The notes under the pieces were generated by a model. That model did no database searches. It had not been told where the DNA came from and was given only the letters and a program-made list of their open reading frames with translations. 39,481 bases of DNA from Spirochaetales bacterium (lineage in GTDB: Bacteria; Spirochaetota; Spirochaetia; Sphaerochaetales; Sphaerochaetaceae), in NCBI GenBank assembly GCA_022788185.1, contig JALEVV010000050.1:1-39481 (forward strand), given 5' to 3'. Within the stretch, counting starts at the first letter, position 1; each line of letters starts with the position of its first letter. Positions 166 to 32,646 of this stretch are shown here, piece by piece. The position numbers and the translations under genes were made by a program.

Positions 166-171
166 TAAAGT
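166..171 (+). promoter_or_regulatory. Candidate -10 box of azlC (leaderless type)
   Basis: TAAAGT ends six bases before the ATG at 178, the spacing seen at several other operon starts in this window. No convincing -35 is visible, so this is one of the weaker members of the set. Confidence 0.4.
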
Positions 172-177
172 CTTATC

Positions 178-900
178 ATGTGGGCCATGCGTAAAGATCT
201 TAGAGAAAACTACCTCAGAGGTCTCAGAGGGGGACTTCCCATCGGTATCGGATACTTCGCAGTATCTTTTACACTGGGGATAGTTATGAGAAATGCAGGA
301 CTCACTGCCTGGGAAGGGGCACTGATGAGTCTTGTCAACAATACAAGTGCAGGTGAGGCGGCAGGAACGGCCATAATACAGAATGACGGTTCCTACTTCG
401 AGATGGCTCTTTCCCAGCTGGTCATCAACCTCCGATATCTTCTTATGAGTGCAGCCCTGATACTTCATGTGGACAGGAATCTGTCCGTGAAGCACAGGAT
501 GCTCATGTCCCTGGACATCACGGATGAGGTTTTCGCCCTTTCCGTACTCCAGCCTAAGCCGCTGTCTCCCTTCTTTTCCTATGGCGTGATGTGCTCCACC
601 ATACCGTTCTGGGCAGCCGGAACTGCACTGGGAATCGTCTTCGGCAACATCCTTTCAGCAGACATCGTCAGGGCACTTTCGATCGCACTCTATGCCATGT
701 TCGTAGCGGTCGTCATCCCGCCGTGCAGAAAGAACGTGAAGCTTCTTGCCGTGGTTGCTTCCAGCATGATCCTGAGCTTCATCGCATCCAGGGCGCCGTA
801 CATCTCATCCTTAAGTGAGGGAAACAGGATAATCATCCTGACCGTTGTCCTTGGCACGGTCTTTGCTTTACTGTTTCCGCCAAAGGAGGAAGAGCTTTGA
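178..900 (+). CDS. azlC: AzlC family branched-chain amino acid exporter, large subunit
   Basis: This 240-residue, strongly hydrophobic protein matches the AzlC family, the large subunit of a two-component exporter of branched-chain amino acids and analogues in the inner membrane. Family features are the N-terminal GLPIGIGYFAVSFTLG segment, the SAGEAAGTAI stretch and the conserved SQLVINLRYLLMS segment, followed by several membrane helices. The length is normal. The usual partner AzlD follows directly with a four-base TTGA overlap, which supports the call. The start at 178 is preferred over the in-frame ATG at 187 because a -10-like box ends six bases before 178. No Shine-Dalgarno is visible for either start. 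The transported substrate in this organism is inferred from the family only. Confidence 0.88.
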   Translation: MWAMRKDLRENYLRGLRGGLPIGIGYFAVSFTLGIVMRNAGLTAWEGALMSLVNNTSAGEAAGTAIIQNDGSYFEMALSQLVINLRYLLMSAALILHVDRNLSVKHRMLMSLDITDEVFALSVLQPKPLSPFFSYGVMCSTIPFWAAGTALGIVFGNILSADIVRALSIALYAMFVAVVIPPCRKNVKLLAVVASSMILSFIASRAPYISSLSEGNRIIILTVVLGTVFALLFPPKEEEL

Positions 901-1202
901 AACACAATGTTTACATCTACATATTCATAATGGCGGCAGTCACTTACGTGATAAGGGTACTGCCCCTTGCCGTGTTCAGAAAGCCGATAGAAAACAGGTT
1001 CATCCGCTCCTTTCTCTACTACGTTCCCTACGTGACGCTCTCGGTAATGACCTTTCCTGCAATTCTGGAAGCCACCGGAAGCTATACCCTGGGAGCAGTC
1101 GGTTTCATAGTCGCGATTCTCTTTTCCCTATATAAGGGATCGCTTCCGCTGGTGGCGGCCGTAAGCTGCCTCAGCGTCTACCTGCTGGAGTTTTTCCTTT
1201 GA
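897..1202 (+). CDS. azlD: AzlD family branched-chain amino acid exporter, small subunit
   Basis: This 101-residue hydrophobic protein has about four membrane segments and matches AzlD, the small partner of AzlC. The family signature TYVIRVLPLAVF lies near the N terminus. The start is a TTG overlapping the azlC stop as TTGA. It is chosen because AGGAGG lies about nine bases upstream inside azlC and no ATG lies nearby in frame. The stop codon at 1200-1202 overlaps the -35 element proposed for the next gene, so the azl operon ends here without an obvious terminator hairpin. Confidence 0.85.
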   Translation: MKHNVYIYIFIMAAVTYVIRVLPLAVFRKPIENRFIRSFLYYVPYVTLSVMTFPAILEATGSYTLGAVGFIVAILFSLYKGSLPLVAAVSCLSVYLLEFFL

Positions 1203-1226
1203 CGCATAACGGGAGTATGTTAAACT
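1199..1226 (+). promoter_or_regulatory. Promoter of the DegT-like/nadK/recN operon
   Basis: TTGACG at 1199-1204, a 16-base spacer and TAAACT at 1221-1226 form a good sigma-70-type promoter. The -10 box ends seven bases before the ATG at 1234, so transcription is expected to begin at or next to the start codon (leaderless mRNA). Confidence 0.65.
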
Positions 1227-1233
1227 TTCACAC

Positions 1234-2268
1234 ATGGCACTGATACGCTTTTACAAACCAACTCTAAGAAGAAAGGATATGGATGCAGTCCTCCAGACCA
1301 TGGTCGATGAGAAGATCGGGCCGGGAGACAGAAGGAAGCTTTTCCTAAGGTCGCTTTGTGAATATCTGGGCCTGAAGGACGGAATCGCACTGAGATCCTA
1401 TCCCGATGCGATCGGGACGGCCCTGTCCGTACTTAATGCGGAGCCAGGCTCGACCATTGCAGTATCTGTGCTTTCTCCTGAAATCTACAGGACCGTTATC
1501 ACTGAGAACGGCCTGAAGATGATGCTGCTTGACGTTTCTCCCGATACAGGGTGCATCTCTGCCGATGAGGCGAAGAGGGCTGAGAGCGAAGGCGCTGCTG
1601 CAATCCTGCTCCATGAGCCCCTCTCCCAGGTGCCATATGACCTGAAGGATCTGTCCCTTTCCATTCCGTTGATCGAGGACATCACCGAATCCTTCGCATC
1701 TTCCTTCGGTCCCTTCAGGGCAGGGTGCCTCGGGGACATTGTAATAGCCGCCTTTGAGGAGGAGTCCATCGTTTCCACTGGAGGCGGTGCCGCCGTGCTT
1801 TCCTCTAAGAGCGCATACATTGACAGCGTCAGGAAACATGCCAGAAGATACAATCCCTTTGCTGAGCTTCCTGACCTGAATGCGTCCCTTGGCGTCGTAC
1901 AGCTCTTAAACATCGACGAGAACCTTAAGAAGAGAAGGGAGCTTTTCAGACTGTTCTCACAGGCCGCCATGAAGAGTGACGTAAAACTCTTCGGGATAAG
2001 GAGCCTGGACTTCGAGCCCTCAGGCTTTCATTTTCCGATCATTGCCTCAGGCCGCCCCGATGAGGTAGTCTCCTTTGCGGCCAAATACACCGTTCCGGTG
2101 AAAAGATCGTTCACGAACAGCTGCGGGATAAACTATCAGGACAGATTCGATCTCTATCCCAATGCGGTCATCTCGCTCTCCAGGGGAGTTTCCTTCCCCT
2201 TATACCCATTCCTTCAGCCAAAGGAAACTGAGGCTGTCATCAAGGTGCTCTCGCACCTTCCGCAATAG
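1234..2268 (+). CDS. DegT/DnrJ/EryC1-like aminotransferase-fold protein lacking the PLP lysine
   Basis: This 344-residue protein follows the layout of the DegT/DnrJ/EryC1/StrS family of PLP-dependent sugar aminotransferases and dehydratases: an N-terminal region with GPGDRRKLF, a large-domain core, the acidic motif IEDITESF around residues 147-154 that would bind the PLP ring nitrogen, and the glycine-rich TGGGAAVL at 182-189. Family members carry the Schiff-base lysine four residues before that TG. Here the aligned stretch reads AFEEESIVSTGGG, so the lysine position is serine 178. A normal transaminase mechanism is therefore unlikely. It may be a non-catalytic or repurposed PLP-fold protein. 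It heads an operon with nadK and recN, and the start is fixed by a promoter seven bases upstream. The substrate is unknown. Confidence 0.7.
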   Translation: MALIRFYKPTLRRKDMDAVLQTMVDEKIGPGDRRKLFLRSLCEYLGLKDGIALRSYPDAIGTALSVLNAEPGSTIAVSVLSPEIYRTVITENGLKMMLLDVSPDTGCISADEAKRAESEGAAAILLHEPLSQVPYDLKDLSLSIPLIEDITESFASSFGPFRAGCLGDIVIAAFEEESIVSTGGGAAVLSSKSAYIDSVRKHARRYNPFAELPDLNASLGVVQLLNIDENLKKRRELFRLFSQAAMKSDVKLFGIRSLDFEPSGFHFPIIASGRPDEVVSFAAKYTVPVKRSFTNSCGINYQDRFDLYPNAVISLSRGVSFPLYPFLQPKETEAVIKVLSHLPQ

Positions 2269-2278
2269 GAGGCATCCC

Positions 2279-3130
2279 ATGGAACTTAAAAACGTAGTTG
2301 TTATCGCAAACGGCTCCAAGCCTGAGGCTGAGTCAATTGCAGAGGAAATCAGGAACTATCTGGCACTCCACGGGATTCTCACCGATGTCTATGTGACTAA
2401 GGACTCCGATGATGACATCCAGCTCTCGATAAAGAGCGATCTCGTTGTGTCCGTCGGAGGGGATGGAACCGTCCTTTACTGTGCCCGTCTCGTTCAGAAC
2501 CTGGGAATCCCCATTCTGGCGGTGAATCTCGGCACCTTCGGCTACATAACCGAAATAGGAAGAGGTGAGTGGCAGAGTGTCTTTGAGGACATCTTCGGGG
2601 ACAGGGAGCGGCTCTCAAGACGCCTCATGCTGAGAGTCAGTGTCATGAGAAAGGGTGTCAAGGTCTATCAGGCAACGGGCCTCAATGAGGCGGTTGTTTC
2701 CAGTGCGGGTATTTCAAAGGTCGTAAAGCTGGACCTTTCAATAAACAGCACCGTTGCCGGAAGATTCAAGAGTGACGGACTCATCATTGCGACTCCCACC
2801 GGTTCCACGGGATATTCCCTGGCGGCCGGAGGACCTATCGTTGACTGTGAGATGTCTGCCTTCATAATCACTCCGATATGCCCGTTCACGCTTTCGAACA
2901 GGCCTCTGGTCCTGGGAGGCAGTGAGGTGATAACGATGAATGTTCCCGAAGGCCAGAGGACCGATCTGATGCTGACCGTAGACGGACAGCAGACCTTCGA
3001 TCTTATGGAAGGCGATGACGTCATAGTCGAGAAGAGCCGTTCGCGTATACTTCTTGTCTCCTCGAACGTCAGAAATTATACGGAAGTGATCAGGGCAAAA
3101 CTGAACTGGACGGGTGAACTCCATGCTTGA
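2279..3130 (+). CDS. nadK: NAD kinase
   Basis: This cytosolic 283-residue enzyme phosphorylates NAD to NADP with ATP. The family signature GGDGT is at residues 60-64, the NE motif appears in LNEAVV, and the conserved GSTGYSLAAGGPI segment follows, so all the usual active-site elements are present. The start is the ATG at 2279, preceded by GGAGG with six-base spacing. A longer frame exists upstream but would run far into the preceding gene. The gene lies ten bases after the DegT-like gene and overlaps recN by eight bases, so the three are probably co-transcribed. A nadK-recN neighbourhood is common in bacteria. Confidence 0.95.
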   Translation: MELKNVVVIANGSKPEAESIAEEIRNYLALHGILTDVYVTKDSDDDIQLSIKSDLVVSVGGDGTVLYCARLVQNLGIPILAVNLGTFGYITEIGRGEWQSVFEDIFGDRERLSRRLMLRVSVMRKGVKVYQATGLNEAVVSSAGISKVVKLDLSINSTVAGRFKSDGLIIATPTGSTGYSLAAGGPIVDCEMSAFIITPICPFTLSNRPLVLGGSEVITMNVPEGQRTDLMLTVDGQQTFDLMEGDDVIVEKSRSRILLVSSNVRNYTEVIRAKLNWTGELHA

Positions 3131-4781
3131 ACAGCTTGACATCACCAACTATGTGCTGATCTCACATCTCTCGATCAGCTTCTCTTCCGGACTTTCCGTT
3201 TTAAGCGGAGAGACGGGAGCGGGTAAATCCGTGATACTCTCTGCAATTGCGCTCATCCTCGGGGAAAAGGCAAAGGCCGACGTGGTCAGGCGCGGTGAGT
3301 CGGAGGCCCACATCAATGCGGTCTTCTCCTATGGGGAGAAGGATGCCGGACTCAGGGCTTTTCTGGAAAGGGAGGACCTGACAGGTGAGGATGACACGAT
3401 CATCATTTCACGGACGATCAGGGCAGGGGGACGCTCCGTTAACCGCGTCAACTCCCGCATCGTCACCAGGGAGACACTTTCGGCGTTAGGAGCCTACCTT
3501 ATCGATATCTCATCCCAGGCAGCCCATCAGGGACTTCTGAAAAACGACGTTCAGAGAGTCCTCCTGGACAGGTTCAGCGATGTCCATGCGGAACTTGAAG
3601 CTTATGAAAAGGCGTTCAGGGCGTATCAGGCCGCTGAGAGCGAGCTGAATGAGCTTAAGGAAAAGAGCGAGAGGGCAAGGCGGGATTACGATTACTTCTC
3701 CTTCTGCCTTGAGGAGCTTGATAAGGCCGATCTGAAGGAAGGAGAGGATGATGTGCTTGGTGCCGAACTGAAGAGGATAAGTCTCAGCGAGGCACTCACC
3801 GAGGAGGTGTCTGCCTCCTACTCAATACTTAAGGGAGACATCGGGGAAGGTGCGCTCACGCTGCTTTCCCATGCCCTTTCATCCCTGAACAGGGCATCGT
3901 CCAGGGATCCCGGGCTTGATGAGCTGGCCAGACGCCTGGAGTCCTGTGAAATAGAGGCCGAGGACATTGCCGCATCCCTTCGTGACTACCTGTCCTCGCT
4001 TACATTCAGCGAACGGGAGCTGGAGGAGAAGAACGCCAGAATGTCCCTTCTGCAGCGCATGAAGAAGAAGTACGGTCCATCCCTTTCCGATGCAATCAAA
4101 AAGCGTGAGGAGTTCCGTGAAGCCCTGCTTGCCGTGGACAACGCTGATGAACTTCTCTCTGAAAAGGAAAAGCAGCTGGCAAAGTGCGCATCAGAACTTG
4201 AAAGGTGTGCCTCTGCCCTTACTGAAAAAAGAAGAAAGGGTGCTTCGAGACTGGAGGAAAAGACCATTTCCATCCTTAAGAAGCTTTCCATGCAGAGTGC
4301 GGAGCTTTCCGTGATGCTTGAGAAGATCCCATACTGTCAGCATGGTCAGGACAAGGTGGAATTCCTAATCAGGGCCAATAAGGGTGAGAAGAGGGGTGCC
4401 ATCAGGGATGTGGCATCGGGCGGTGAGCTCTCCAGAATCCTTCTGGCCCTCAAGGCGGCCCTCAGTGAGGAGGATGAGACCGGAACACTCATATTCGATG
4501 AGGTGGACAGCGGAATAGGCGGAGCCGTCGCCACCGCAGTCGGCGAGGAGATTTCCGCTCTTTCGAAGAGCCATCAGGTGCTTGTCATAACCCATTCTGC
4601 CCAGATAGCTGCCAGGGCGGATGTCCACTTCCTCGTTTCAAAGAGGGAGGAGGGTGAGAGAACCTTCTCCGAAGTCAGAAAAATCGACGGTGAGGGGCGC
4701 ATAAAGGAAATCGCCCGTCTCCTTTCCGGAAAGACGAGCGACAGTGCACTGGTTCATGCCAGGGAATTACTTGAAGTTTAA
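3123..4781 (+). CDS. recN: DNA repair protein RecN
   Basis: RecN is an SMC-like ATPase that acts in double-strand break repair. The 552-residue product has the Walker A motif GETGAGKS at residues 29-36, a central region rich in Glu/Lys/Leu heptads typical of coiled coils, the ABC signature ASGGELSRILLALK, and the Walker B motif LIFDEVDSGIGG near the C terminus. Length is normal. ATG 3123 is chosen because the mature N terminus MLEQLDITNYVLI matches the family; an in-frame GTG lies three codons earlier. It overlaps nadK by eight bases. Its 3' end overlaps the convergent GH57 gene by 15 bases, with no room for an intergenic terminator. Confidence 0.95.
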   Translation: MLEQLDITNYVLISHLSISFSSGLSVLSGETGAGKSVILSAIALILGEKAKADVVRRGESEAHINAVFSYGEKDAGLRAFLEREDLTGEDDTIIISRTIRAGGRSVNRVNSRIVTRETLSALGAYLIDISSQAAHQGLLKNDVQRVLLDRFSDVHAELEAYEKAFRAYQAAESELNELKEKSERARRDYDYFSFCLEELDKADLKEGEDDVLGAELKRISLSEALTEEVSASYSILKGDIGEGALTLLSHALSSLNRASSRDPGLDELARRLESCEIEAEDIAASLRDYLSSLTFSERELEEKNARMSLLQRMKKKYGPSLSDAIKKREEFREALLAVDNADELLSEKEKQLAKCASELERCASALTEKRRKGASRLEEKTISILKKLSMQSAELSVMLEKIPYCQHGQDKVEFLIRANKGEKRGAIRDVASGGELSRILLALKAALSEEDETGTLIFDEVDSGIGGAVATAVGEEISALSKSHQVLVITHSAQIAARADVHFLVSKREEGERTFSEVRKIDGEGRIKEIARLLSGKTSDSALVHARELLEV

Positions 4782-7082
4782 AGTATCGTAGATCTTTTTC
4801 TTCTTCTCTTCACTGACTGCTGACTGCTTCCTGCCTGAGTAGTACTCATAGACCTCATTCTGCAGCGTCTTGCTCTCAGGCTCGAAGCCGAAGCTCCTTA
4901 CCATATTGAAGAACTCCGTGATGAGATCGGCGAGAGTGTCATCGAGTCCGTTATTCCTAAGATCGTATGCGATTTTGGTTACATCCCTGTTAAGAATCTC
5001 AAGAACCGCATTGGTCTCGTTAACACGTCCGTACTTCCTGATGAAGTCCAGAAGGACGGTGAAGTACATTTTCTTTTCTTCCCAGGTGATACTGTCCGGA
5101 TGGATGGTTGAAAGTGCCTTGAATATCTTCATGGCCAGTCCCAGGTTCTCAAGTATCATCGTCTTCATCGGCAGATACTTGCTGCTCTTAGTGAGAATTG
5201 AGAAGTTGTAAAGGGAGTTCACCACCACCTTGATGTCCGACAGCTGGAGTGATGAGGTTGCCCTGTCAACCCAGTTGTCACAGAGACTCAGAACGAGAAG
5301 CGGAATGTCCTCCGTCGTGATTTTATATCTCTGACGTGATTCATTGTTTGAACAGAGATAGAGGTTAAGTCCTCCTGACACCGTGGAAGAGGAGAGTATG
5401 GTGAAATCATATCTGATCTGGGAGATGACATCGTGGAAGATGATTCTTGCGTTGTCACTGCATTCACTCACGTAGCTGTCAAGGACGAAGCGTCCGTACT
5501 TTTTCTCCCAGTCGCTTTCAATGGCAACCACATGGTTGATGTAGAAGAAGATTGAGGCCTCGCACTCTCCGGAAAGGGCCTTGAGCTCTGCCTGGGCAAT
5601 GCTCATGCCGTCTCCCTGTGCCCTGATGTTGCTCTTTGCCTTCCTGAGCTCGCTGAGGAAGGGCAGCAGCAGGTCTTCCTCGCTGTAGCTCTGGAACATT
5701 TTCATGGCATAGAGGGCATAACGGATGTTCTGCCTCGGCTCGATGCCTGAAATGTCATTGAAGAAGAAGCCGCAGCTCGTGAAGGAGAAGTGTCTGTTCT
5801 GGATACCGAGAAGCAGTGATGCAACCTCCGTGTCGAAAGCGGGATCAAAGGAATACTTTTCATGGAGGTGGGAAATCAGGGTGGGCATGTCCTCTTTTCC
5901 GATGAAGACGGGTGCCACCTCATCGAGTATCATGTCAGGCGTTACCGATGAGCCGAAGATCCTGGTGCACTCGGCGGCGAATATGTCATCTAGCTTTGCC
6001 GAGAGATCGGACAGCGCCTTTCTGAGAGGAGTCCTCCACTTCTGGTTCCAGCCTTCCTCTCCTCCGGTGTGGCAGCCGCAGTCCTTGTACCACCTTGATA
6101 CGCCGTGGGAACAGGACCAGGAGGTTCCCTTTCCCTCCTCACCGCGGTGAAGCACTGCCCTGAGCGTGGGCCGGTGATCGGCAAGATACCTTCCGTAGTT
6201 GGTGAATTCGAAATCGTTTCTTTCCTCAACCTTCTTAATGAGTGCGGCCAGTGCCATGTCACCGAAGGGTTCATGGTGGCCGTAGATCTCACCGTCCGTG
6301 GCTGTATGAATGAGAGGCTGTCTGTCCGTATTCCTGATATCAAGCAGCATGTCGTAAAGAGAGTCGGCATTTCTCAGCGCATGGCCGAAGCTGATGCTTG
6401 AGGCCAGACCCGGGTGGTAGAAGAATCCGGCTATTTCCCGCCCTGTTGTTCCCGAGAGAATGTATGGTTCGGCATACGGGGCAGGGGAGGGTCCCAGCTC
6501 ATCCATCTGATGAGTCGTCGGGTTCTCAACGGCCCTGCACTGCCATGGGGAGAGGACCACGAACTTTATTCCGCTCTCAGAGAGAATGTCAATGACATCA
6601 CTGTTGATGGCGGCTTCCGGCAGCCACATGCCCTCAGGCATTCTGCCGAAGCGGTAGATGAAGTCCTCAATTCCCCATTCGATCTGGCGCTTTGCGTCGC
6701 TGACCCTGTCGAGGGGGAGGATCGTGTGGTTGTACCCCATGGCCATGCCGTTACCGTGGCCGAGACGCCTGACGCTTTCCCTGTCAGCTTCCACTATCAT
6801 GTCGTGGAAAATGGGGTGCTTGTCCTTGAGCCACGTCATGATCGTGTGTCCGAAGTTGAAGGAAAGATAACTGTAGTTGTTGGTCAGGCTTTCGATCCGT
6901 CCGTCCGGTCCGAGATATCTGGAAAAGGCGTTTGCGCCGTAACATTCATGGCAGATGCGCTCATTCCAGTTGTCAAAGGGAGCAGCGCTCGGCTGCTTTT
7001 CGATTATTCCTGTATATGGGTTTTCCCTGGGGGGCTGATAAAAGTGTCCATGTAGGATCAGTGAGGTTTTTGTAGATTCCAT
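4767..7082 (-). CDS. Glycoside hydrolase family 57 protein with DUF3536 domain
   Basis: This 771-residue protein starts with the GH57 motif HGHFYQP (residues 11-17), followed by GMAMGYNH near 112-119, WLPEAA with the predicted nucleophile Glu156, and TDGEIYGHH with the predicted acid/base Asp263. The long C-terminal half matches the DUF3536 type and is mostly helical. GH57 enzymes act on alpha-glucans as amylases, glucanotransferases or branching enzymes. The exact reaction of the DUF3536 branch is not known to me. The start is the ATG at 7082: a promoter with a -10 ending eight bases upstream leaves no room for the longer frame. No signal peptide is seen, so the protein is probably cytoplasmic. 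It diverges from a DUF4912-GH57 operon. Confidence 0.88.
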   Translation of the reverse strand: MESTKTSLILHGHFYQPPRENPYTGIIEKQPSAAPFDNWNERICHECYGANAFSRYLGPDGRIESLTNNYSYLSFNFGHTIMTWLKDKHPIFHDMIVEADRESVRRLGHGNGMAMGYNHTILPLDRVSDAKRQIEWGIEDFIYRFGRMPEGMWLPEAAINSDVIDILSESGIKFVVLSPWQCRAVENPTTHQMDELGPSPAPYAEPYILSGTTGREIAGFFYHPGLASSISFGHALRNADSLYDMLLDIRNTDRQPLIHTATDGEIYGHHEPFGDMALAALIKKVEERNDFEFTNYGRYLADHRPTLRAVLHRGEEGKGTSWSCSHGVSRWYKDCGCHTGGEEGWNQKWRTPLRKALSDLSAKLDDIFAAECTRIFGSSVTPDMILDEVAPVFIGKEDMPTLISHLHEKYSFDPAFDTEVASLLLGIQNRHFSFTSCGFFFNDISGIEPRQNIRYALYAMKMFQSYSEEDLLLPFLSELRKAKSNIRAQGDGMSIAQAELKALSGECEASIFFYINHVVAIESDWEKKYGRFVLDSYVSECSDNARIIFHDVISQIRYDFTILSSSTVSGGLNLYLCSNNESRQRYKITTEDIPLLVLSLCDNWVDRATSSLQLSDIKVVVNSLYNFSILTKSSKYLPMKTMILENLGLAMKIFKALSTIHPDSITWEEKKMYFTVLLDFIRKYGRVNETNAVLEILNRDVTKIAYDLRNNGLDDTLADLITEFFNMVRSFGFEPESKTLQNEVYEYYSGRKQSAVSEEKKKKIYDTLNFK

Positions 7083-7090
7083 AGACAGAA

Positions 7091-7119
7091 ATTTTAACAG
7101 AGGGGACACCCACACTCAA
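7091..7119 (-). promoter_or_regulatory. Promoter of the GH57-DUF3536 gene (leaderless type)
   Basis: On the minus strand TTGAGT (7119-7114), a 17-base spacer and TAAAAT (7096-7091) precede the ATG at 7082 by eight bases. The initiation point should fall at the start codon. Confidence 0.7.
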
Positions 7120-19880: not shown

Positions 19881-19886
19881 TAGGAT
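19881..19886 (+). promoter_or_regulatory. Candidate -10 box of the second xer gene (leaderless type)
   Basis: TAGGAT ends six bases before the ATG at 19893, and no Shine-Dalgarno is visible. The -35 position holds TTTTCT at 17 bases, a weak match that is also found at secA. Confidence 0.45.
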
Positions 19887-19892: not shown

Positions 19893-20774
19893 ATGGATAA
19901 ACGGGATGATTACCTTAAATATCTCAGGGAGGTAAGGGCACTTTCCGAAAACACCCTCACCGCATACGGTGAGGATCTCGATGAGTACTATGCCTACCTG
20001 AAGGAGAGGAATCTTGACGAGATGGATGTGACGGTTCACGATGCCCGTGATTACGTCAGGTACCTGAAGGAACGTTATGCCGAGCGGAGCGTGCTGAGGA
20101 AGGTCACGAGCGCAAGGACCTATTACACCTATCTTGCCAAACGGGAACTCGTACGGCATAATGTCTTTTCCGACATTTCCCTCAGGGAAAAGGGACTGCA
20201 CCTGCCGTCCTTCCTGACTGAGGAGGAAGTGAAGAGGCTTCTTTCAATCCCGAGAGAAGACTTTTCCGATGAGAGGGATCACATCCTGTTTCTCTTCATC
20301 TACAACAGCGGAGCCCGTATCAGCGAGGCTCTCAGCGTGGATGTGAACCAGCTTGATTTCAGGAAGAGAAGGATATTGATACAGGGTAAGGGGAAGAAGC
20401 TCCGCTACCTTTTCTTCAGTGAAAGCACCGCTTCCGAGCTTCGCTCCTATCTGGAAAAAAGGGAAGTGTTTCTCGCAACAAAAGGTAAAAGCGCTGAGAA
20501 GGCACTCTTTGTTTCCGAGCGGGGAAACAGGTTGCCATTCAGTTCGGCCCATATTATCTTTGAAAAGTATGCCGCCCTCTGCGGCTTCGATAAGGAATTC
20601 ACGCCGCACACCCTGCGGCACAGTTTCGCGACCCACCTTCTGGAAAGGGGCGCGGACATAAGGGTGGTACAGGAGCTGCTCGGACATGAAAGCATCGCCA
20701 CCACCCAGATATACACGCATGTGACGAAGTCGCGTCTCCATGAGACGTATGACAGGGCTCACCCCCATGCGTGA
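19893..20774 (+). CDS. Tyrosine recombinase XerC/XerD/CodV family (second copy)
   Basis: This 293-residue protein has the N-terminal core-binding domain and the full catalytic set: Arg142 (GARISE), Lys166 (QGKGKKLR), His239 and Arg242 ([11 protein letters not shown]), His265 (LLGHES) and Tyr274 (TQIYTH). Its place just before hslVU is the same as that of codV/xerC in many bacteria. It shares only family motifs with the first copy, so the two are more likely a XerC/XerD pair than a recent duplication. There is no Shine-Dalgarno; a -10 box six bases upstream suggests leaderless transcription. hslV follows after 15 bases. Confidence 0.92.
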   Translation: MDKRDDYLKYLREVRALSENTLTAYGEDLDEYYAYLKERNLDEMDVTVHDARDYVRYLKERYAERSVLRKVTSARTYYTYLAKRELVRHNVFSDISLREKGLHLPSFLTEEEVKRLLSIPREDFSDERDHILFLFIYNSGARISEALSVDVNQLDFRKRRILIQGKGKKLRYLFFSESTASELRSYLEKREVFLATKGKSAEKALFVSERGNRLPFSSAHIIFEKYAALCGFDKEFTPHTLRHSFATHLLERGADIRVVQELLGHESIATTQIYTHVTKSRLHETYDRAHPHA

Positions 20775-22701: not shown

Positions 22702-23790
22702 ATGGAATACATCACCATTACGGGTGACTCCTATGAAAGTGCAGTCGATGAGGCAAAGAAGAAATACGGCGAGAGGGTGAGGATTCACTCCCGCCGGGAC
22801 TTTACCGTCGGGGGCGGACTCTTCACCAGAAAGAGAAACCGCTGTGAGATAGTGTGCTACCTGGCTTCAGGCGGAAATACTTCCCAGGAGGCTGTGAGTG
22901 ACCGGGACCTGCGCGAGTTTGAGAAGGAAGCCCGGACACCCGATCCCTCATCGCTGACTCTTGAGGAAAAGCTTGAGACCGATCTGACAAGAAGAACGAG
23001 GGAAGCGGAGAAAACCGTTGACGCCCTCCTGGAGGAAAATGACATCAAGGGTCCCTTCAGGGATAAGGTCACGGATGACTTCAACTACGATGCCCCCGAT
23101 ATTGCCCTGGAGCTTTCCGACAGGATCATATCGGCTGTCTCCATAGACCATCTTTCCCAGGCCCATCCGAAGAAGTACATGGTCTTCATCGGTCCCACCG
23201 GGTCCGGTAAGACCACGACTCTTGCCAAGATCGCATATCTGTACAAGAATGTCGGACGCCGGGTGGCGATCATAACCCTGGACAGCTACCGGGTAGGGGC
23301 CATAGAGCAGGTGAAGGCATATGGCGATGCCTTCTCCATCCCCGTCCTTCCCGTCTCCGGTGAGGATGAGGTCATCCTGGCCCAGGACCGTCTCAGGGAC
23401 TTTGATCTCGTCCTTGTCGACACAATGGGAGTAAGCCCCGAGGACGGTGCTCTTAACCTGAAGCTCAAGGGCCTGCTGTCCCTGTTTTCTGAAAAGGAAA
23501 CTGCCTTCGTGCTCACCCTGGCCGCCAACTTAAAGAGCGAGGACATGATGAAGCAGTACAGGAGCTACGGGGCTTACCCCATTTCCTCACTGATATGCAC
23601 AAAGCTCGATGAGACTGAATCGATCGGATCGTTTTTAACCTTCCAGTACAGGGCTGGTAAGCCTGTAAGCTTCGTCACCTGCGGACAGAAGGTGCCCCAG
23701 GACCTGAAAAAGGCATCCACCACGGTGGTGCTGGAATACTTGAAGGGATTTGGAATAGACGTGAAGCGCCTTGCCGCTCAGTTGAGCTGA
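22702..23790 (+). CDS. flhF: FlhF-type SRP family GTPase
   Basis: The 362-residue protein has an FlhF-like N-terminal region (ITGDSYESAVDEAKKKYG), a charged middle part and an SRP-type NG domain: G1 GPTGSGKT at 164-171, the FlhF/SRP segment TLDSYRVGAIEQVKAYGD, G3 as DTMG in place of DTAG, G4 TKLDE and the closing GQKVPQDL. FlhF positions polar flagella in many bacteria and normally lies in a flhA-flhF-flhG cluster. Here no flagellar gene is in view and the gene follows hslU by 14 bases with AGGGAGGG upstream. FtsY and Ffh are less likely because the N-terminal region is of FlhF type. Its 3' end overlaps the convergent PBP gene by 13 bases. Confidence 0.85.
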   Translation: MEYITITGDSYESAVDEAKKKYGERVRIHSRRDFTVGGGLFTRKRNRCEIVCYLASGGNTSQEAVSDRDLREFEKEARTPDPSSLTLEEKLETDLTRRTREAEKTVDALLEENDIKGPFRDKVTDDFNYDAPDIALELSDRIISAVSIDHLSQAHPKKYMVFIGPTGSGKTTTLAKIAYLYKNVGRRVAIITLDSYRVGAIEQVKAYGDAFSIPVLPVSGEDEVILAQDRLRDFDLVLVDTMGVSPEDGALNLKLKGLLSLFSEKETAFVLTLAANLKSEDMMKQYRSYGAYPISSLICTKLDETESIGSFLTFQYRAGKPVSFVTCGQKVPQDLKKASTTVVLEYLKGFGIDVKRLAAQLS

Positions 23791-25436
23791 ACGACGGTCT
23801 GCTTTTCACTTCTTATCTTCCCCTGATTTACAAGACCGTTTATCACGGCAGCACATGAGGGAGCCGCCACATTGGCTCCCCAGATGCTGTCTCCCCTGGG
23901 GGCTGAGACGGCAAAATAAATAATGTACTTTGGATCATCTGCAGGAACCAGCGCGATGGTGGAGGCAAGGGAGGTCCCGTCCTCATAGCTCTTTGAAACC
24001 GGGTTTATGATCTGGGCCGTTCCGGTCTTGGCAGCAACACTGACGCCTTCACATCCAGCCAGCTTTGCAGTCCCGCTTTTTACCGCTTCCTCCATATACG
24101 ATCTTACGAGTGCGGCAGTTTCCGCAGACATTACCTGATACTCTTTCTTTTCACTTAGATCTGTTACTTTCCCGTCATGGGTCTGCACTGCCTTTACAAG
24201 GGAAGGCGTCACAAGCTTTCCGTCATTGGCCAGTGCGGTTGCCGCCGTCACGGTCTGAAGCGCGTTCACGCTTATCTCCTGACCGAAGGCAATCGTTGCC
24301 TGGGACCTGTGGGACCAGAGGGAGACGGGTGAAAGATACCCCGCTGTCACTCCGGGAAGGGAAACATCATACTTTTTCGTGAAGCCCAGTGAAGTGAGAT
24401 ACTCCCTGAACGCTTCAGGGTCACTCTGGAGTACCCAGTATGCGATTGCACCGTTACAGCTCTTCGCGATCATCCCCGCTGCATCAACCTCCCCATGCTC
24501 CTCATGACAGGTTATGGTGAATGACTTTCCGTCCACGGTAAATGTCTCCTCCCCGTCACAGATGAAGGGGGTGGAGGTATCGATACCCTGCTCGATGCAC
24601 CAGGCCAGGGTGAAGATCTTGAAGACACTTCCCGGTTCGTAGGTGTAGCTGAGGCACCTGTTCATCCTCTCGTCCTCGCTTGATGAAGAGTACCTGTTCA
24701 GGTCATACCAGGGGTATGAGGACATGGCATAAACCTCCCCGTCCTTTGCTCCCATGACCATGGCCATGATGTAGTCCGGATGGTGTGTCTCACTTATTTC
24801 CTGCACCTGCACATCCACAAGATACTGGATATCAAGATCAAGGGTGAGCATGATGTCATCCCCGTATGTGATCTCACTGCCGAGTCCGGGGTATGGAAGG
24901 AGGGTGCTGTCAAAGGACAGCTCTGCACCCTCAAGTCCCTTGTTCTCACTGTTCACGAACCCGATGACCTGGGATGCGTGGAAGGTGGAGGGGTAGGTCC
25001 TGCCGTCGTAGCGCTCAAGATAAATCTTACCCCTGTAAGGTGATGCGTTGATAACCTCCTGAAGCTTTTCAGCTTCCTCCTGTGACAGTCCTCTCCTTAT
25101 TAACGCAATGGAAGTGTAAGCGGAAGCACTGTCAAGGATATCTGCCTGGGTGACACCCAGATAGGGGGCGATGAAGAGGGCTGCCTCGTTTATGTCCGGG
25201 ATTTCCTTAAGCCTGAAATAGAGGTTGTACCTTACAGTCTGGATTGCAAGGATCTTTGAGTTCCTGTCCAGAATCTCACCCCTCACCACCATGGGTGAGA
25301 CCTCCGGGTCATCATAGGTTTTGGACTTGCCGCCTCCTATGACCAGGACTGAGATATGGACGAAAAGCAGTACGAAACCCAGAATCGTTATCAGTAACAG
25401 GTAAAAAGAAACGTTCTTGTTGGTATTGGAACTCAT
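23778..25436 (-). CDS. Class B penicillin-binding protein (FtsI-like transpeptidase)
   Basis: The 552-residue protein has a short cytoplasmic start, one membrane anchor at about 12-34, a pedestal domain (RGEILDRNSKILA) and a transpeptidase domain with the three active-site motifs: SVFK at 270-273 with the catalytic serine, SCN at 326-328 and KTG at 470-472. No glycosyltransferase domain is present, so it is class B and would act with a SEDS polymerase such as FtsW. ftsI is missing from the division cluster in this window, so this is the natural candidate, although PBP2 of the elongasome cannot be excluded. The ATG at 25436 is fixed by a near-consensus promoter whose -10 ends eight bases upstream. 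Confidence 0.9.
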   Translation of the reverse strand: MSSNTNKNVSFYLLLITILGFVLLFVHISVLVIGGGKSKTYDDPEVSPMVVRGEILDRNSKILAIQTVRYNLYFRLKEIPDINEAALFIAPYLGVTQADILDSASAYTSIALIRRGLSQEEAEKLQEVINASPYRGKIYLERYDGRTYPSTFHASQVIGFVNSENKGLEGAELSFDSTLLPYPGLGSEITYGDDIMLTLDLDIQYLVDVQVQEISETHHPDYIMAMVMGAKDGEVYAMSSYPWYDLNRYSSSSEDERMNRCLSYTYEPGSVFKIFTLAWCIEQGIDTSTPFICDGEETFTVDGKSFTITCHEEHGEVDAAGMIAKSCNGAIAYWVLQSDPEAFREYLTSLGFTKKYDVSLPGVTAGYLSPVSLWSHRSQATIAFGQEISVNALQTVTAATALANDGKLVTPSLVKAVQTHDGKVTDLSEKKEYQVMSAETAALVRSYMEEAVKSGTAKLAGCEGVSVAAKTGTAQIINPVSKSYEDGTSLASTIALVPADDPKYIIYFAVSAPRGDSIWGANVAAPSCAAVINGLVNQGKIRSEKQTVVQLN

Positions 25437-25449
25437 CAAAAAGTATATT
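25420..25449 (+). promoter_or_regulatory. Promoter of the NlpD-like gene
   Basis: TTGGTA, an 18-base spacer and TATATT at 25444-25449 point rightward, giving a leader of roughly 25 bases before the ATG at 25480. The -10 shares five bases with the opposing -10 of the PBP promoter. Confidence 0.5.
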
Positions 25450-25473
25450 ATTCTTAATACAGAGGTTTGTCAA
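25445..25473 (-). promoter_or_regulatory. Promoter of the class B PBP gene (leaderless type)
   Basis: A perfect TTGACA (25473-25468), a 17-base spacer and TAATAT (25450-25445) on the minus strand precede the ATG at 25436 by eight bases. This is the best promoter match in the window. Its -10 overlaps, on the opposite strand, the proposed -10 of the divergent gene. Confidence 0.8.
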
Positions 25474-25479
25474 AAACAA

Positions 25480-26553: not shown

Positions 26554-26565
26554 CATCAAACCACG

Positions 26566-26598: not shown

Positions 26599-26838
26599 TA
26601 TGCCAATAGACCATAACGGAGTGTGTAATATTGCACCGTCCTATGCTCATACTCACACGAGATTATCTGAATACGCTGCATGCAATGCTCAGGGCACACA
26701 ATGGACTCAATCTGTCTTCTGCTGATCCATTGTAAGAGGTCAGGATTCAGATGTTTCCAGCAAGATGAAATGCTGAGTGTGTGTCTTTGGGGTATTATAT
26801 GTTATATTATGAGTATATATGTAAAGGAGGTGCTTCTT
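26599..26838 (+). other. Gene-free AT-rich stretch before the DUF4160 gene
   Basis: I see no convincing gene here. An 8-bp inverted repeat (ACAATGGA at 26698 with TCCATTGT at 26726) encloses about 20 bases. The last 50 bases are very AT-rich with several TATATT/TATTAT boxes and probably hold the promoter of the DUF4160 gene, but no single -35/-10 pair stands out. Composition shifts to AT-rich from here to about 27540. Confidence 0.4.
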
Positions 26839-27093: not shown

Positions 27094-27100
27094 GGTTATA

Positions 27101-27352: not shown

Positions 27353-27510
27353 GCCACACTGCCAAGCTTGACGGGATTCACGTGTCAGTATCCTTCACCA
27401 CCTTGTTCTTTGAGCCTTTCGGTTATGTTTGTCAAAAGTGAATAGGAGAAAAGAAATCAGGAAATCAGTTTTTCTGTCGAGGTTGTCAAGAATTGTGTGC
27501 TTATCCCACA

Positions 27511-27542
27511 GTGATGCCCACCGGAATTCCGATGGGCATCAC
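27511..27542. repeat. 32-bp near-perfect palindrome
   Basis: GTGATGCCCA and TGGGCATCAC flank the inner palindrome CGGAATTCCG with a single mismatched pair (C27521/A27532). It lies just beyond the 3' end of galM. Neither strand has a T run after it, so it is not a classical terminator. It may stabilise the galM mRNA end or be a dispersed repeat. Confidence 0.6.
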
Positions 27543-27547
27543 TTTCA

Positions 27548-28468: not shown

Positions 28469-28488
28469 GATTGTTCCTTTTGGGAGTA

Positions 28489-28517
28489 ATCATCTCACAG
28501 CAGGTTTTTTCAATCAA
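28489..28517 (-). promoter_or_regulatory. Promoter of galM
   Basis: TTGATT (28517-28512), a 17-base spacer and GATGAT (28494-28489) on the minus strand give a short leader with AAGGA a few bases before the ATG. Confidence 0.5.
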
Positions 28518-28528
28518 CCTTTTAGTAA

Positions 28529-28534
28529 TACAAT
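28529..28534 (+). promoter_or_regulatory. Candidate -10 box of the 62-residue gene (leaderless type)
   Basis: TACAAT ends seven bases before the ATG at 28542. The -35 is poor (a T-rich stretch). The box lies between the divergent galM promoter and the small gene. Confidence 0.45.
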
Positions 28535-28541
28535 TCTGGTC

Positions 28542-28730
28542 ATGGAATACGCAATGGAAGAGCTTCTGGAGGCTGAAAGGCAGATAGAGTCTACAATATA
28601 TAAGCTGGAAGCAACGGTCATTACTTTTGAGTCTAAGGACAATGTTTCACGCTGCAAGTCACAGATCATACTGGCAAAGGCATTTACCATTGCCTTGGAG
28701 CTTATAAGAGAAAAACTGCATGGCATTTAA
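28542..28730 (+). CDS. Small helical protein of unknown function (62 residues)
   Basis: I do not recognise this protein. It is 62 residues, rich in Glu, Leu, Ile, Lys and Ala, and looks like two amphipathic helices (MEELLEAERQIESTIYKLEATV and CKSQIILAKAFTIALELIREKL). It has no membrane segment or signal peptide. The start is set by a -10 box seven bases before ATG 28542. Its stop codon lies in the loop of the hairpin that terminates the convergent secA gene. The layout resembles small regulatory or antitoxin-like proteins, but nothing here proves that. Confidence 0.5.
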   Translation: MEYAMEELLEAERQIESTIYKLEATVITFESKDNVSRCKSQIILAKAFTIALELIREKLHGI

Positions 28731-28738
28731 CCATGCAG
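28711..28738 (-). terminator. Rho-independent terminator of secA
   Basis: Read on the minus strand, CTGCATGG pairs with CCATGCAG across a 7-base loop and is followed by five T residues, 13 bases after the secA stop. On the plus strand it overlaps the stop codon of the small gene and lacks a T run. Confidence 0.85.
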
Positions 28739-28750
28739 TCTTATGTGTTA

Positions 28751-31498
28751 TCAGAAGTTCCTTCCGCAGCAGTTCTTGTACTTCTTTCCGCTGCCGCAGG
28801 GGCAGGGATCGTTTCTTCCGATCTTCTGAGTGGTCCTCACGATCGTGTTGTTCTGCTGTGCCTGAGCTGTTATGTGCTCCTCGCGCTTTCTGGGACCGAG
28901 TGTGATCTGGGGGCCCTGGGAACGCTGGGGAGTGCGGAGCGTAAACTTTACGGCAATTGCCATGCGGCATATGTTCTCCGTGATCTCATTGAGCATCCTG
29001 TCATAGGCATCTCCCGCCTCGTTTTTGTACTCAACAAGCGGATTCTTCTGGGCATAGCTCCTAAGGGAGGCTGCATCCTTAATGTCCTCGAGGGCATCGA
29101 GATGGTCGATCCACCTCCTGTCGATGTTCTTGAGGTACATCTGGCGGAGGAACTGGTTGAAGAGCTCCTTCGTGATCTGGTCTTCCTTTGTGTGGATTAT
29201 TGCGGCGGCTCGCTCATTGATTATATCCGTGACATCGGGCTTTGAGAGCTCTTCTTCCGTAAGGGAGAAGTCTGTTGTAAACTCCCTTAAGAGGGCATCC
29301 CTGAGACCGCTGGGATTCTTCTCATTTTCCTTTACGAGGCTGCCCACCAGATCGGAGATGTTCTCAAGCACGCGGGATGAAAGATCCGTATCGGCAAGAA
29401 TCTCATCACGCTGCTCATAGATGTAGTTCCTCTGTTCGTTAAGGACGTTGTCGTAGTCAAGCAGGCGTTTTCTGATTTCGAAGTTTCTTTCCTCAACCCT
29501 GAGCTGAGCCTTTTCGATGGCACCGGTGAGCATCTTGTTTTCAAGGGGTTCTCCGTCCGCCATGCCGAGCTTGCCGACCATGTTCCTGACCGCATCCGAA
29601 GCAAAGAGCCTCATCAGCGTGTCATCGAGGGAGACGTAGAAACGGGATGTACCGGGATCTCCCTGACGGCCTGAACGACCTCTCAGCTGGTTGTCGATAC
29701 GTCTTGATTCATGTCTTTCAGAACCGATGATGTAGAGACCTCCGAGACGCTTTACCTCGTCGTTGGCCTTCTCCCACTCGGGTCTGAGCTCATCCATGGC
29801 CTTCTTAAGTTCCTCGGGAGATGCTTCGGTACCGACCTTTTTCAGTGCCAGATGTTCCAGTGATCCACCGAGCTTGATATCGGTACCGCGGCCTGCCATG
29901 TTGGTTGAGATGGTGACTGCACCCTTGCTTCCGGCTTCACCGATGATGAAGGCTTCCCTTGCATGGTTCTTTGCATTGAGGACCTCATGCTTTATTCCGG
30001 CCCTTCTGAAGAGGGCGGAAAGCACTTCAGACTTCTCAATCGATACGGTACCGATCAGGACGGGCTGTCCGGTTGCATGGATCTTCTTAACTTCCTCGGC
30101 GATTGCCAGGAACTTCTGCTTTTCGTCGTAGTAGATGAGATCGGGTAGGTCGACTCTCTTCACAGGTCTGTTAGTGGGAACCACCACGACATCAAGGTCG
30201 TAAATCTGCTTGAACTCATTTGCCTCGGTATCGGCGGTACCTGTCATGCCTGAAAGCTTGTCATACATCCTGAAGAAGTTCTGGAACGTGATCGTGGCGA
30301 AGGTCTTGCTCTGTGCCTGGATCCTTACGCCTTCCTTGGCTTCAATTGCCTGATGAAGACCGTTGTTGTACCTTCTTCCCGGAAGAATACGGCCGGTGAA
30401 CTGATCGACGATCTGGACTTCACCGTCCTTCACTACGTAATCGACATCCTTCTCAAAAAGCTTATGGGCGATGACAGCCTCAGTGACATAGTGAATGTAC
30501 TCGAAGTTTCCGTCATCATAGATGCTTGTGGTGTCTTCACCGTTTTCATCTTTGCTCGTGATCAGGAGGCCCTGCTGCCTCAGAATCCTTTCCAGGTTGG
30601 TTATGCCCTGCTTCGTGAAGGTGATGTTCTTGCTCTTTTCATCAATGCGGTAGTCACCCTTTTCATCGAAGGCGGCAACCGCATCCTTATCCATCATCTC
30701 AAACTTGGAAAGCTCGTAGTAATCACCGGTTGCGGGATCCTTCTCGCACTCCTTGAGGAAGGGTACTATGCCGTCCGCAGTGCGGACGCTCTTTGAGTCA
30801 TCCTCAGCCTGACCGGAGATGATGAGAGGCGTTCTTGCCTCATCGATGAGGATCGAGTCGATCTCATCGACGATACAGAAGTGATGTTTGGGCTGGATCT
30901 TGTCCTCAAGCCGCCACTTCATGTTGTCACGCAGGTAGTCGAAACCGAATTCGTTATTCGTGCCGTATGTGATGTCGCATGCGTAAGCCTGACGCTTCCT
31001 TTCATTGTCCTGGGTGGAAAGGATGACACCGACTGTCAGACCGAGGTATTCATATACGGGTCCCATCCAGTCGCGGTCACGCTCCGCAAGATAGTCGTTG
31101 ACCGTGACGATGTGAACGCCTTCGCCTGAGAGGGCGTTGAGATAAGCCGCCGGAACGCAGGTAAGGGTCTTTCCTTCACCTGTCTTGAGTTCCAGGATCG
31201 AGCCCTGATGCAGTACGATCGCACCCATGATCTGGACATCGTAGTGACGTTCCCCGAGAACTCGCCATGCCGCCTCGCGGGCAATTGCGAAGGCCTTGGG
31301 AAGGAGCTGGTCAAGGGTTGTCTTTCCGCTTCTTACCTCTTCCTTCCACTCTGACGTCAGAGCCTTCATCTCATCCTGGGAAAGGCCTTTGGCCCAGTCC
31401 GAGTTCTTATTCACGCTCTCGACTATGGGTCTGAGGCGCTTCATGTCTTTATCCTGTTTAGTGCCACCGAAAAGGGCAGCCAATAATCTGTTTGCCAT
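28751..31498 (-). CDS. secA: Protein translocase ATPase SecA
   Basis: SecA drives export of unfolded preproteins through SecYEG. The 915-residue protein has the Walker A region LKTGEGKTLTCVPAA, the DEAD-type box VDEIDSILIDEARTPLIISG, the second nucleotide-binding fold with TNMAGRGTDIKLGG and QLRGRSGRQGDPG, the scaffold and wing regions, and a C-terminal zinc finger CPCGSGKKYKNCC. The start is the ATG at 31498 (MANRLLAALFGG), not the longer frame, because a TATTAT box ends seven bases upstream. It is transcribed alone, ending in a strong terminator. Confidence 0.97.
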   Translation of the reverse strand: MANRLLAALFGGTKQDKDMKRLRPIVESVNKNSDWAKGLSQDEMKALTSEWKEEVRSGKTTLDQLLPKAFAIAREAAWRVLGERHYDVQIMGAIVLHQGSILELKTGEGKTLTCVPAAYLNALSGEGVHIVTVNDYLAERDRDWMGPVYEYLGLTVGVILSTQDNERKRQAYACDITYGTNNEFGFDYLRDNMKWRLEDKIQPKHHFCIVDEIDSILIDEARTPLIISGQAEDDSKSVRTADGIVPFLKECEKDPATGDYYELSKFEMMDKDAVAAFDEKGDYRIDEKSKNITFTKQGITNLERILRQQGLLITSKDENGEDTTSIYDDGNFEYIHYVTEAVIAHKLFEKDVDYVVKDGEVQIVDQFTGRILPGRRYNNGLHQAIEAKEGVRIQAQSKTFATITFQNFFRMYDKLSGMTGTADTEANEFKQIYDLDVVVVPTNRPVKRVDLPDLIYYDEKQKFLAIAEEVKKIHATGQPVLIGTVSIEKSEVLSALFRRAGIKHEVLNAKNHAREAFIIGEAGSKGAVTISTNMAGRGTDIKLGGSLEHLALKKVGTEASPEELKKAMDELRPEWEKANDEVKRLGGLYIIGSERHESRRIDNQLRGRSGRQGDPGTSRFYVSLDDTLMRLFASDAVRNMVGKLGMADGEPLENKMLTGAIEKAQLRVEERNFEIRKRLLDYDNVLNEQRNYIYEQRDEILADTDLSSRVLENISDLVGSLVKENEKNPSGLRDALLREFTTDFSLTEEELSKPDVTDIINERAAAIIHTKEDQITKELFNQFLRQMYLKNIDRRWIDHLDALEDIKDAASLRSYAQKNPLVEYKNEAGDAYDRMLNEITENICRMAIAVKFTLRTPQRSQGPQITLGPRKREEHITAQAQQNNTIVRTTQKIGRNDPCPCGSGKKYKNCCGRNF

Positions 31499-31505
31499 AG
31501 GCTTA

Positions 31506-31534
31506 ATAATACAAAAGATTTCCCTACGAGAAAA
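31506..31534 (-). promoter_or_regulatory. Promoter of secA (leaderless type)
   Basis: TATTAT (31511-31506) ends seven bases before the secA ATG on the minus strand. The -35 at 17 bases is TTTTCT, a poor match to TTGACA. Confidence 0.55.
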
Positions 31535-31559
31535 GACAGGGATAGAAAGACGTGTCAAA

Positions 31560-31577
31560 AAGAAACAGTTGTTTCTT
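31560..31577. promoter_or_regulatory. 18-bp perfect palindrome next to the murG promoter (candidate operator)
   Basis: AAGAAACA-GT-TGTTTCTT is a perfect 8-2-8 inverted repeat ending two bases before the murG -35. It lies between the divergent secA and murG promoters. There is no T run or coding role, so a protein-binding site is the simplest reading. Confidence 0.5.
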
Positions 31578-31578
31578 C

Positions 31579-31607
31579 TTGACTCACACCTTTGACGGGC
31601 CTATATT
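31579..31607 (+). promoter_or_regulatory. Promoter of the murG-dinG operon (leaderless type)
   Basis: TTGACT, a 17-base spacer and TATATT at 31602-31607 precede the murG ATG by seven bases. Confidence 0.75.
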
Positions 31608-31614
31608 TGTTTTC

Positions 31615-32646
31615 ATGAAGATTGCCCTGACAGGGGGCGGGACGCTAGGTCACGTCATCCCGGCCCTTACCGTTATGGAAAAAATAAGAGAAGAGGACAA
31701 AGATGCCGATTTCCTTTTCATAGGAAGCACGAAGGAAAAGGAAAAAAGTGCGGTCCTCTCCCATGGGATAAGGTTTTATCCCGTTTCCTCAGGTAAGCTC
31801 AGACGCTACTTCTCATTTGAAAACCTCACTGACATCTTCAGGATCATGAGGGGCTTCTTCCAGGCCCGGAAGATACTGAAGAAGGAAAGGCCGGACGTCC
31901 TCTTCTCAAAAGGGGGCTTTGTGTCCGTACCCGTTGTTGCCGCGGCCCACACTCTGGGAATAAGGTGCATTACCCATGAGTCGGACATGACACTGGGGCT
32001 TGCCAACAGGATCAATGCGAAATTCTCAGAGTATGTGTGTCTTGGATTCGATACCGGTGTTTATAAGGACAGCAGGTACATCTTCACCGGAAATCCGGTG
32101 AGAAAGGAACTGACCGGGATAAAAAGGATTAAGGGTGAGAGAAAGCTCATCCTGGTCCTTGGTGGCTCCCAGGGGGCAGTGGAGATAAACCGCCTCATAT
32201 ATGACAGCCTTGATGAAATCCTTCCCCTGGCCGATGTCTACCATCAGGCGGGAATTCATGGGGACTTTTCAGTAAAGAGGGAAGGGTACACTCAGGTGGA
32301 ATTCATAGGTGATGAGCTTCCATCGCTCTTTTCCCGTGCGACGCTATGCATCTCCCGTGCGGGAGCCGGAGCCGTTTCCGAGCTTGGAGGAGCCGGAGTC
32401 CCCATGTTCCTCATCCCGCTCGGACGCGGGGCCAGCCGCGGGGACCAGATAGACAATGCTGCCTATGCGGAGGCTTTGGGTAAGGCCTGGGTGCTGAAGG
32501 AGGGGAGCTCCTTCATTTCCCAGCTTTCTGATATACTGACTGATGATGAGAGGCTTCTGAAAATGGAAGCTTCCCCCTGGCCGATGGACGGGGATCGAAG
32601 CGCAGCGGCCATAGCTGCCCTCATAATGAATAAGGAGAAGAAGTAA
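31615..32646 (+). CDS. murG: UDP-GlcNAc:undecaprenyl-pyrophosphoryl-MurNAc-pentapeptide transferase MurG
   Basis: MurG adds GlcNAc to lipid I to make lipid II on the inner face of the membrane. The 343-residue protein has the glycine-rich loop GGGTLGH at 8-14, SKGGFVSVPVVAAA, the HES/D segment THESDMTLGLANR, TGNPVR, GGSQGA in the donor-binding region, and SRAGAGAVSELGG. The ATG at 31615 is chosen because a near-consensus promoter ends seven bases upstream; a longer frame would begin before the promoter. It heads a six-gene operon with overlapping junctions, away from the main division cluster. Confidence 0.95.
   Translation: MKIALTGGGTLGHVIPALTVMEKIREEDKDADFLFIGSTKEKEKSAVLSHGIRFYPVSSGKLRRYFSFENLTDIFRIMRGFFQARKILKKERPDVLFSKGGFVSVPVVAAAHTLGIRCITHESDMTLGLANRINAKFSEYVCLGFDTGVYKDSRYIFTGNPVRKELTGIKRIKGERKLILVLGGSQGAVEINRLIYDSLDEILPLADVYHQAGIHGDFSVKREGYTQVEFIGDELPSLFSRATLCISRAGAGAVSELGGAGVPMFLIPLGRGASRGDQIDNAAYAEALGKAWVLKEGSSFISQLSDILTDDERLLKMEASPWPMDGDRSAAAIAALIMNKEKK

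Follow-up and report, generated by a model that had tools for sequence, protein, structure and literature searches.

Leaderless gene starts have a record in spirochaetes. A 2011 survey (PMC3160421) predicted that 1.8-6.9% of genes are leaderless in 6 of 18 spirochaete genomes; differential RNA sequencing of Leptospira interrogans (PMC5243855) found about 440 transcripts whose 5' ends lie no more than 10 nt from the start codon, with 184 exactly on it at 30 °C; and a ribosome paper (PMC10618245) refers to leaderless transcripts at high frequency in Borrelia burgdorferi. The use of a 5'-terminal AUG by the ribosome on leaderless messages is established elsewhere (PMC5397173). Here we analyse a 39,481-nt stretch of DNA (the window; contig JALEVV010000050.1 of assembly GCA_022788185.1) from a Spirochaetales bacterium, in which a TANNNT hexamer, resembling a promoter -10 box, ends 6-8 nt before the ATG of several genes, including secA and murG. 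A first-pass annotation had pointed to this layout, taking leaderless mRNAs to be unknown in spirochaetes. That premise fails in view of the reports on Leptospira and Borrelia and of the 2011 survey, and it is accordingly well supported that our finding adds a further group showing a known kind of gene start and is not a new phenomenon.

The source genome comprises 2,266,925 bases in 90 contigs and is 94.9% complete. Its SecA is 74% identical to the nearest record, from an uncultured Spirochaetales metagenome-assembled genome, and 64-67% identical to those of further uncultured Spirochaetaceae and Spirochaetales; identities to Sphaerochaetaceae (54-57%) and to treponemes (52-55%) are lower. 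These values place the host among the spirochaetes, in the class to which those groups belong. The genome-wide sample consisted of the window and 40 further stretches, 786,610 bases in all (35% of the genome), in which genes were called by hexamer coding scores only, blind to start signals. Among the 650 genes called, 303 counted as operon-first (over 20 bases from a divergent neighbour, or over 70 bases behind a same-strand gene), 276 were inner (less than 40 bases behind), and 71 were dropped as lying at stretch edges, divergent within 20 bases, or behind a same-strand gene at gaps of 40-70 bases. First genes starting with GTG or TTG (n = 31) were tallied separately and had three boxes at a gap of 6-9 nt; inner genes with these start codons (n = 36) and one stretch (L163) stood outside the counts.

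In this sample, TANNNT ends 6-8 nt before the ATG in 66 of 272 operon-first genes (24.3%; hereafter tagged genes), when 20.5 are expected from the background at gaps 27-59 (p 1.5e-17). One hundred mononucleotide shuffles averaged 24.9 and peaked at 36, so that the enrichment over shuffled controls anticipated by the first-pass annotation is borne out. The counts are 28 at gap 6, 23 at gap 7 and 15 at gap 8 over a background of about 7 per position, and the excess corresponds to about 18% of first genes. The boxes belong to operon-first positions, with only 15 cases among 240 inner-operon ATGs. A composition effect was rejected, as the gaps neighbouring 6-8 are not raised. Most stretches were drawn from long contigs with an earlier motif match and ten from contigs C1-C11 irrespective of matches; biased contig choice was rejected because the rate on the motif-independent contigs (12 of 53) matches the overall rate. 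The window itself (4 of 9) contributes four of the 66 tagged genes and the remaining stretches 50 of 210; omitting the window leaves 62 of 263. Identical code applied to 200 kb each of Escherichia coli K-12 and of the Thermus megaplasmid pTT27 returned 0 of 76 and 10 of 35, respectively, in keeping with the leadered starts of the one and the leaderless starts of the other. The layout is real and far above chance.

Tagged genes carry further promoter features. A -35 hexamer (TTGACA-like, at least four of six positions) peaks at a spacer of 17 in 23 of the 66, compared with 0-7 at the other spacers between 10 and 25. An extended -10 (TGn before the box) is present in 20 of 66 tagged genes vs 15 of 129 genes with boxes at 27-44 nt, and the base at -1 is a pyrimidine in 61 of 66, compared with 67 of 106 first genes led by a Shine-Dalgarno (SD) site and 107 of 240 inner genes. 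When TANNNT was required together with either a -35 or TGn, 45 of 272 first genes qualified at gap 6-8 and no other 3-nt window exceeded 14; when the start was allowed at any in-frame ATG within 45 nt and a pyrimidine was required at -1, the count was 53 of 303 vs 0-11 elsewhere. Taken together, these two counts indicate that about a sixth of operon-first genes look leaderless. Judged from these sequence features, the tagged boxes behave as sigma-70 promoters with the ATG as the predicted start site.

SD sites, called by a strict 5-mer rule, are distributed accordingly: none was found in the 66 tagged genes vs 106 in the 206 untagged first genes, and among first genes with TANNNT at 20-22 nt they occur in 19 of 31. 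Most inner-operon genes have one (143 of 240), as had been noted for the window, and the coexistence of two layouts proposed there, tagged first genes without an SD and SD-led initiation elsewhere in the genome, holds in the larger sample. A loss of ribosomal protein S1 behind this layout was rejected, since the genome holds a near-full-length rpsA-family match (profile positions 5-516 of 516; 574.5 bits, just below the cut-off of 577). This match and the SD use of inner genes give no sign of a defective canonical pathway.

In sigma-70 geometry, a box ending 6-8 nt before an ATG places the start of transcription at or beside the A of that ATG. We therefore propose that housekeeping sigma-70-type promoters of this organism end their -10 element 6-9 nt before the ATG, so that RNA polymerase would begin transcribing on the A of the ATG or no more than about 3 nt away. 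A message made like this would be too short at its 5' end to hold an SD, and ribosomes would translate it as leaderless by recognising its 5'-terminal AUG directly. About one in six operon-first genes would have this arrangement, secA, murG and a PBP2 gene among them, and other first genes and most inner genes would be initiated through SD sites. Leaderless transcription is very probably the best explanation of the box-to-ATG layout, given the geometry, statistics, promoter features and conservation observed; where transcription begins, that no leader is made and how the message is translated are predictions drawn from sequence.

The closest match among described systems is the class of TA-led genes in the 2011 survey (PMC3160421), which are marked by a -10-like TANNNT whose first T lies about 12 bp ahead of the start codon, and stand beside SD-led genes. 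Counted in this way, gap 6 corresponds to -12, and the peak found here lies at gap 6-8. Our 45 composite cases among 650 called genes fall at the upper end of the 1.8-6.9% range that the survey gives for spirochaetes, although the method differs and the genus here is uncultured. Leptospira interrogans belongs to the same phylum, but its starts were mapped by experiment and ours are predicted from sequence; that study (PMC5243855) reported no general promoter motif besides sigma-54, whereas -35, -10 and extended -10 elements are visible in the tagged set. Leaderless genes of Thermus and Deinococcus show a similar position peak with identical code (the pTT27 count above), but their share is higher there (in a small sample), as is their G+C content, and they belong to another phylum. 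Literature searches combining leaderless initiation with spirochaete genera listed among their matches no start-site map for a spirochaete beyond those cited, which is no proof of absence. Our results would add a group of uncultured relatives to the two spirochaete genera for which leaderless initiation has been mapped or cited.

Within the window, the first-pass annotation had named eight transcription-unit starts with a TANNNT box 6-8 nt before the ATG. All eight boxes are there, but some of the sites are not unit starts, and the eight are unequal: five (1234, 7082, 25436, 31498 and 31615) are conserved in the genus and three (178, 19893 and 28542) are weak. The four good -35 hexamers it listed were likewise found, at a spacer of 16 for 1234 and of 17 for 7082, 25436 and 31615. 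On the forward strand, a DegT/DnrJ/EryC1 family aminotransferase gene (1234..2268; Pfam PF01041), predicted to be leaderless, has a -35 TTGACG at 1199..1204 and a -10 TAAACT at 1221..1226, 7 nt before the ATG. On the reverse strand, a gene for a DUF3536/glycosyl hydrolase 57 (GH57) protein (4767..7082; Pfam PF12055, PF03065), also predicted leaderless, has TTGAGT at 7114..7119 and TAAAAT at 7091..7096, 8 nt before the ATG. The gene for a PBP2/SpoVD-type transpeptidase (23778..25436, reverse strand; Pfam PF00905 and PF03717, with NCBIfam TIGR02214 and TIGR03423 below their cut-offs) is preceded by TTGACA at 25468..25473 and TAATAT at 25445..25450, again 8 nt before the ATG, and is predicted to be leaderless or near-leaderless. 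secA (28751..31498, reverse strand; NF009538 and TIGR00963 above cut-off, N-terminus backed by homologues) has TATTAT at 31506..31511, 7 nt before the ATG, with a weak -35 (three of six positions). Divergent from it on the forward strand is murG (31615..32646; PF03033 and PF04101, with TIGR01133 at 225 bits and NF009102 at 256 bits below cut-offs of 250.25 and 339), with TTGACT at 31579..31584 and TATATT at 31602..31607, 7 nt before the ATG. Both secA and murG are predicted to be leaderless.

Orthologues of these five genes were collected from genus-mates, the counts including the window's own copy. One genome (G013) was left out, as secA and PBP2 were not found in it and its DegT gene was cut, as were G003 and G006 for PBP2 (partial matches of 33-35% only) and G007 for DUF3536 (N-terminus cut). 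TANNNT lies 6-9 nt before the ATG in 70 of 73 copies, or 65 of 68 without the window's own: 15 of 15 for murG (at 6-7 nt), DUF3536 and DegT, 13 of 13 for PBP2, and 12 of 15 for secA, where all 15 copies have it at 6-11 nt. Other 4-nt windows before the same genes score 0-4 of 13-15, and the median ungapped identity of the 45 upstream bases is 0.33-0.40. At the same loci, the M23 peptidase gene divergent from PBP2 has a box at 6-9 nt in 1 of 13 copies; its boxes lie instead at 22-25 nt (10 of 13) and at 26-29 nt (9 of 13). The predicted absence of a leader at secA, murG, PBP2, DegT and DUF3536 would thus have been kept over long divergence within one genus.

The DegT gene illustrates a consequence for annotation. 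The signal-blind caller placed its start at 1279 and not at 1234, which is why it stands outside the 66 tagged genes, yet full-length homologues from the genus align from residue 1-3 of the protein starting at 1234. Gene finders that rely on SD sites, or on coding potential alone, can misplace starts of this kind.

Several observations weigh against leaderless initiation or weaken its support. That tagged genes lack SD sites is in part a necessity, since the box takes up the stretch in which an SD would lie, and each of four relatives has one tagged gene with an SD (1/18, 1/9, 1/9 and 1/12). Inner genes show a small bump at gaps 6 and 7 (8 and 6 of 240). Boxes at 27-44 nt also have a -35 peak at spacer 17, albeit a weaker one (20 of 129), which suggests that other first genes have leadered promoters. 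Folding at the 5' end is weaker in tagged genes at a p of only 0.03, and their A-richness after the ATG is not significant (p 0.26 and 0.25), so that a special A-rich start region was rejected. Eight of the 15 genus copies of secA have their -10 at no gap other than 9-11 nt, and just 2 of 13 PBP2 copies show a pyrimidine at -1. The last two points favour real promoters with very short leaders of about 2-10 nt, or with several nearby starts, a reading that we regard as unlikely for the set. With the peak at gap 6-7 and C or T at -1 (61 of 66), the position at which transcription prefers to start coincides, for most genes, with the A of the ATG. Judging by the secA gaps of up to 11 nt and the -1 base of PBP2, some transcripts probably carry a short leader of 1-5 nt, and for PBP2 a leader of 1-3 nt is possible.

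It is also conceivable that the box is not the main promoter and that an upstream promoter makes the translated, leadered mRNA. TANNNT occurs at 20-25 and 40-44 nt as well, and genes may have several promoters; however, tagged genes have no SD (0 of 66), and the near-fixed box distance in 70 of 73 genus copies, when other 4-nt windows reach 0-4 of 13-15, makes this account quite improbable. More improbable still is that the T/A-rich box serves translation, for example by binding ribosomal protein S1 or by keeping the region unstructured. PMC5397173 cautions that S1 binding could underlie an AT-rich bias at -20 to -10, and the rpsA-family match covers nearly its whole profile in this genome. 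Against this stand the -35 peak at 17 bp, the excess of TGn (20 of 66 vs 15 of 129) and the concentration on first genes (66 of 272 vs 15 of 240). Finally, we give almost no credence to chance or wrongly placed start codons. TANNNT is a loose pattern (7.5% per gene at three positions), and coincidence probably explains the box at 19893 and perhaps those at 28542 and 178. For the set as a whole, chance and wrong starts are refuted by the position profile, the shuffles and the E. coli control, the p value of 1.5e-17 having been obtained genome-wide with signal-blind starts and the N-termini being aligned with those of homologues; single sites may still be chance.

Beyond the genus, a stricter pattern was used, TTGAC-N(16-19)-TANNNT-gap-ATG, comparing gaps of 5-8 nt with gaps of 15-18 nt. 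The comparison is conservative, because the 15-18 control holds real leadered promoters. The window's own genome gave 42 at 5-8 nt vs 25 at 15-18 nt, and the shorter gap prevailed in 39 of the 41 genomes compared from the genus, family and class, this one among them, with sums of 446 v 270 in the genus, 359 v 234 in the family and 1015 v 497 in the class. The two genomes without an excess were G006 (25 v 26) and G021 (17 v 17). Among spirochaete genomes reached through named loci, 15 of 15 favoured 5-8 nt (805 v 401), four of them not significantly when taken singly, and one Firmicute showed no excess at 5-8 nt (21 v 25). Counts based on gene calls, made as in the window's genome, were 18 of 77 and 9 of 44 in two genus-mates, 9 of 63 in another genus of the family, and 12 of 62 (G029) and 13 of 58 (G027) in class members. 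They were not significant, in small samples, in Treponema ruminis (3 of 47, p 0.84; 160 kb), in the class member G031 (4 of 37, p 0.10) and in a further genome, G053 (8 of 55, p 0.085); in these three the strict pattern favours 5-8 nt (45 v 24, 50 v 21 and 97 v 41, respectively). Whether this joining of promoter to start codon is ancient in the class Spirochaetia and maintained by selection, with about one unit in six leaderless (among them secA, murG and PBP2) and the box-to-ATG distance kept in 70 of 73 copies as other upstream DNA turns over, seems to us an evenly balanced question. The promoter logos and orthologue sets assembled here make leaderless initiation in this group testable.

The three weak sites in the window differ from one another. 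TAAAGT at 166..171 on the forward strand, 6 nt before the ATG of azlC at 178, is a weak candidate: of 12 genus orthologues, three (those of the nearest two, L329 and L330, and that of L339) have TANNNT 6-7 nt before the ATG, and nine show none at 0-15 nt. In several genus-mates (L331-L338), azlC stands behind what by eye resembles a GC-rich hairpin or repeat with a run of T some 20-30 nt upstream of the ATG, which may be a terminator or an attenuator. TAGGAT at 19881..19886 (forward strand), 6 nt before the ATG at 19893 of a XerC/XerD-like recombinase gene, is probably not a promoter. This gene begins 19 bases behind a same-strand gene and so is operon-internal, and the supposed box contains AGGA, which reads as an SD; the gene is probably best read as an SD-led operon gene. 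TACAAT at 28529..28534 (forward strand) is a clean box, 7 nt before the ATG of an orphan 62-aa open reading frame (28542-28730) that is unconfirmed as a gene, with a coding score of 11.2 compared with a calling threshold of 15 and no relative in 24 related genomes except one match at E 0.7.

Some of the boxes lie in short divergent regions. Close divergent pairs (20-99 bp) in this genome, such as that at 1226-1272 of stretch L096, have boxes on both sides in 7 of 24 cases; a tendency of boxes to co-occur on both sides of divergent pairs was rejected (10 of 71 vs 7.5 expected, p 0.21). The PBP2 and M23 peptidase genes are divergent and 43 bp apart (25437-25479), and the PBP2 -10 region reads TATTAT on the opposite strand. 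Together with the M23 boxes at 22-29 nt in 9-10 of 13 loci, this suggests that one symmetric -10 may serve both directions. In the secA/murG region (31499-31614), an imperfect palindrome, GAAACAGTTGTTTC, was noted by eye, and several genus-mates have a TGTGTCTAATTGACACA-like palindrome there that overlaps the murG -35; it is a possible candidate operator.

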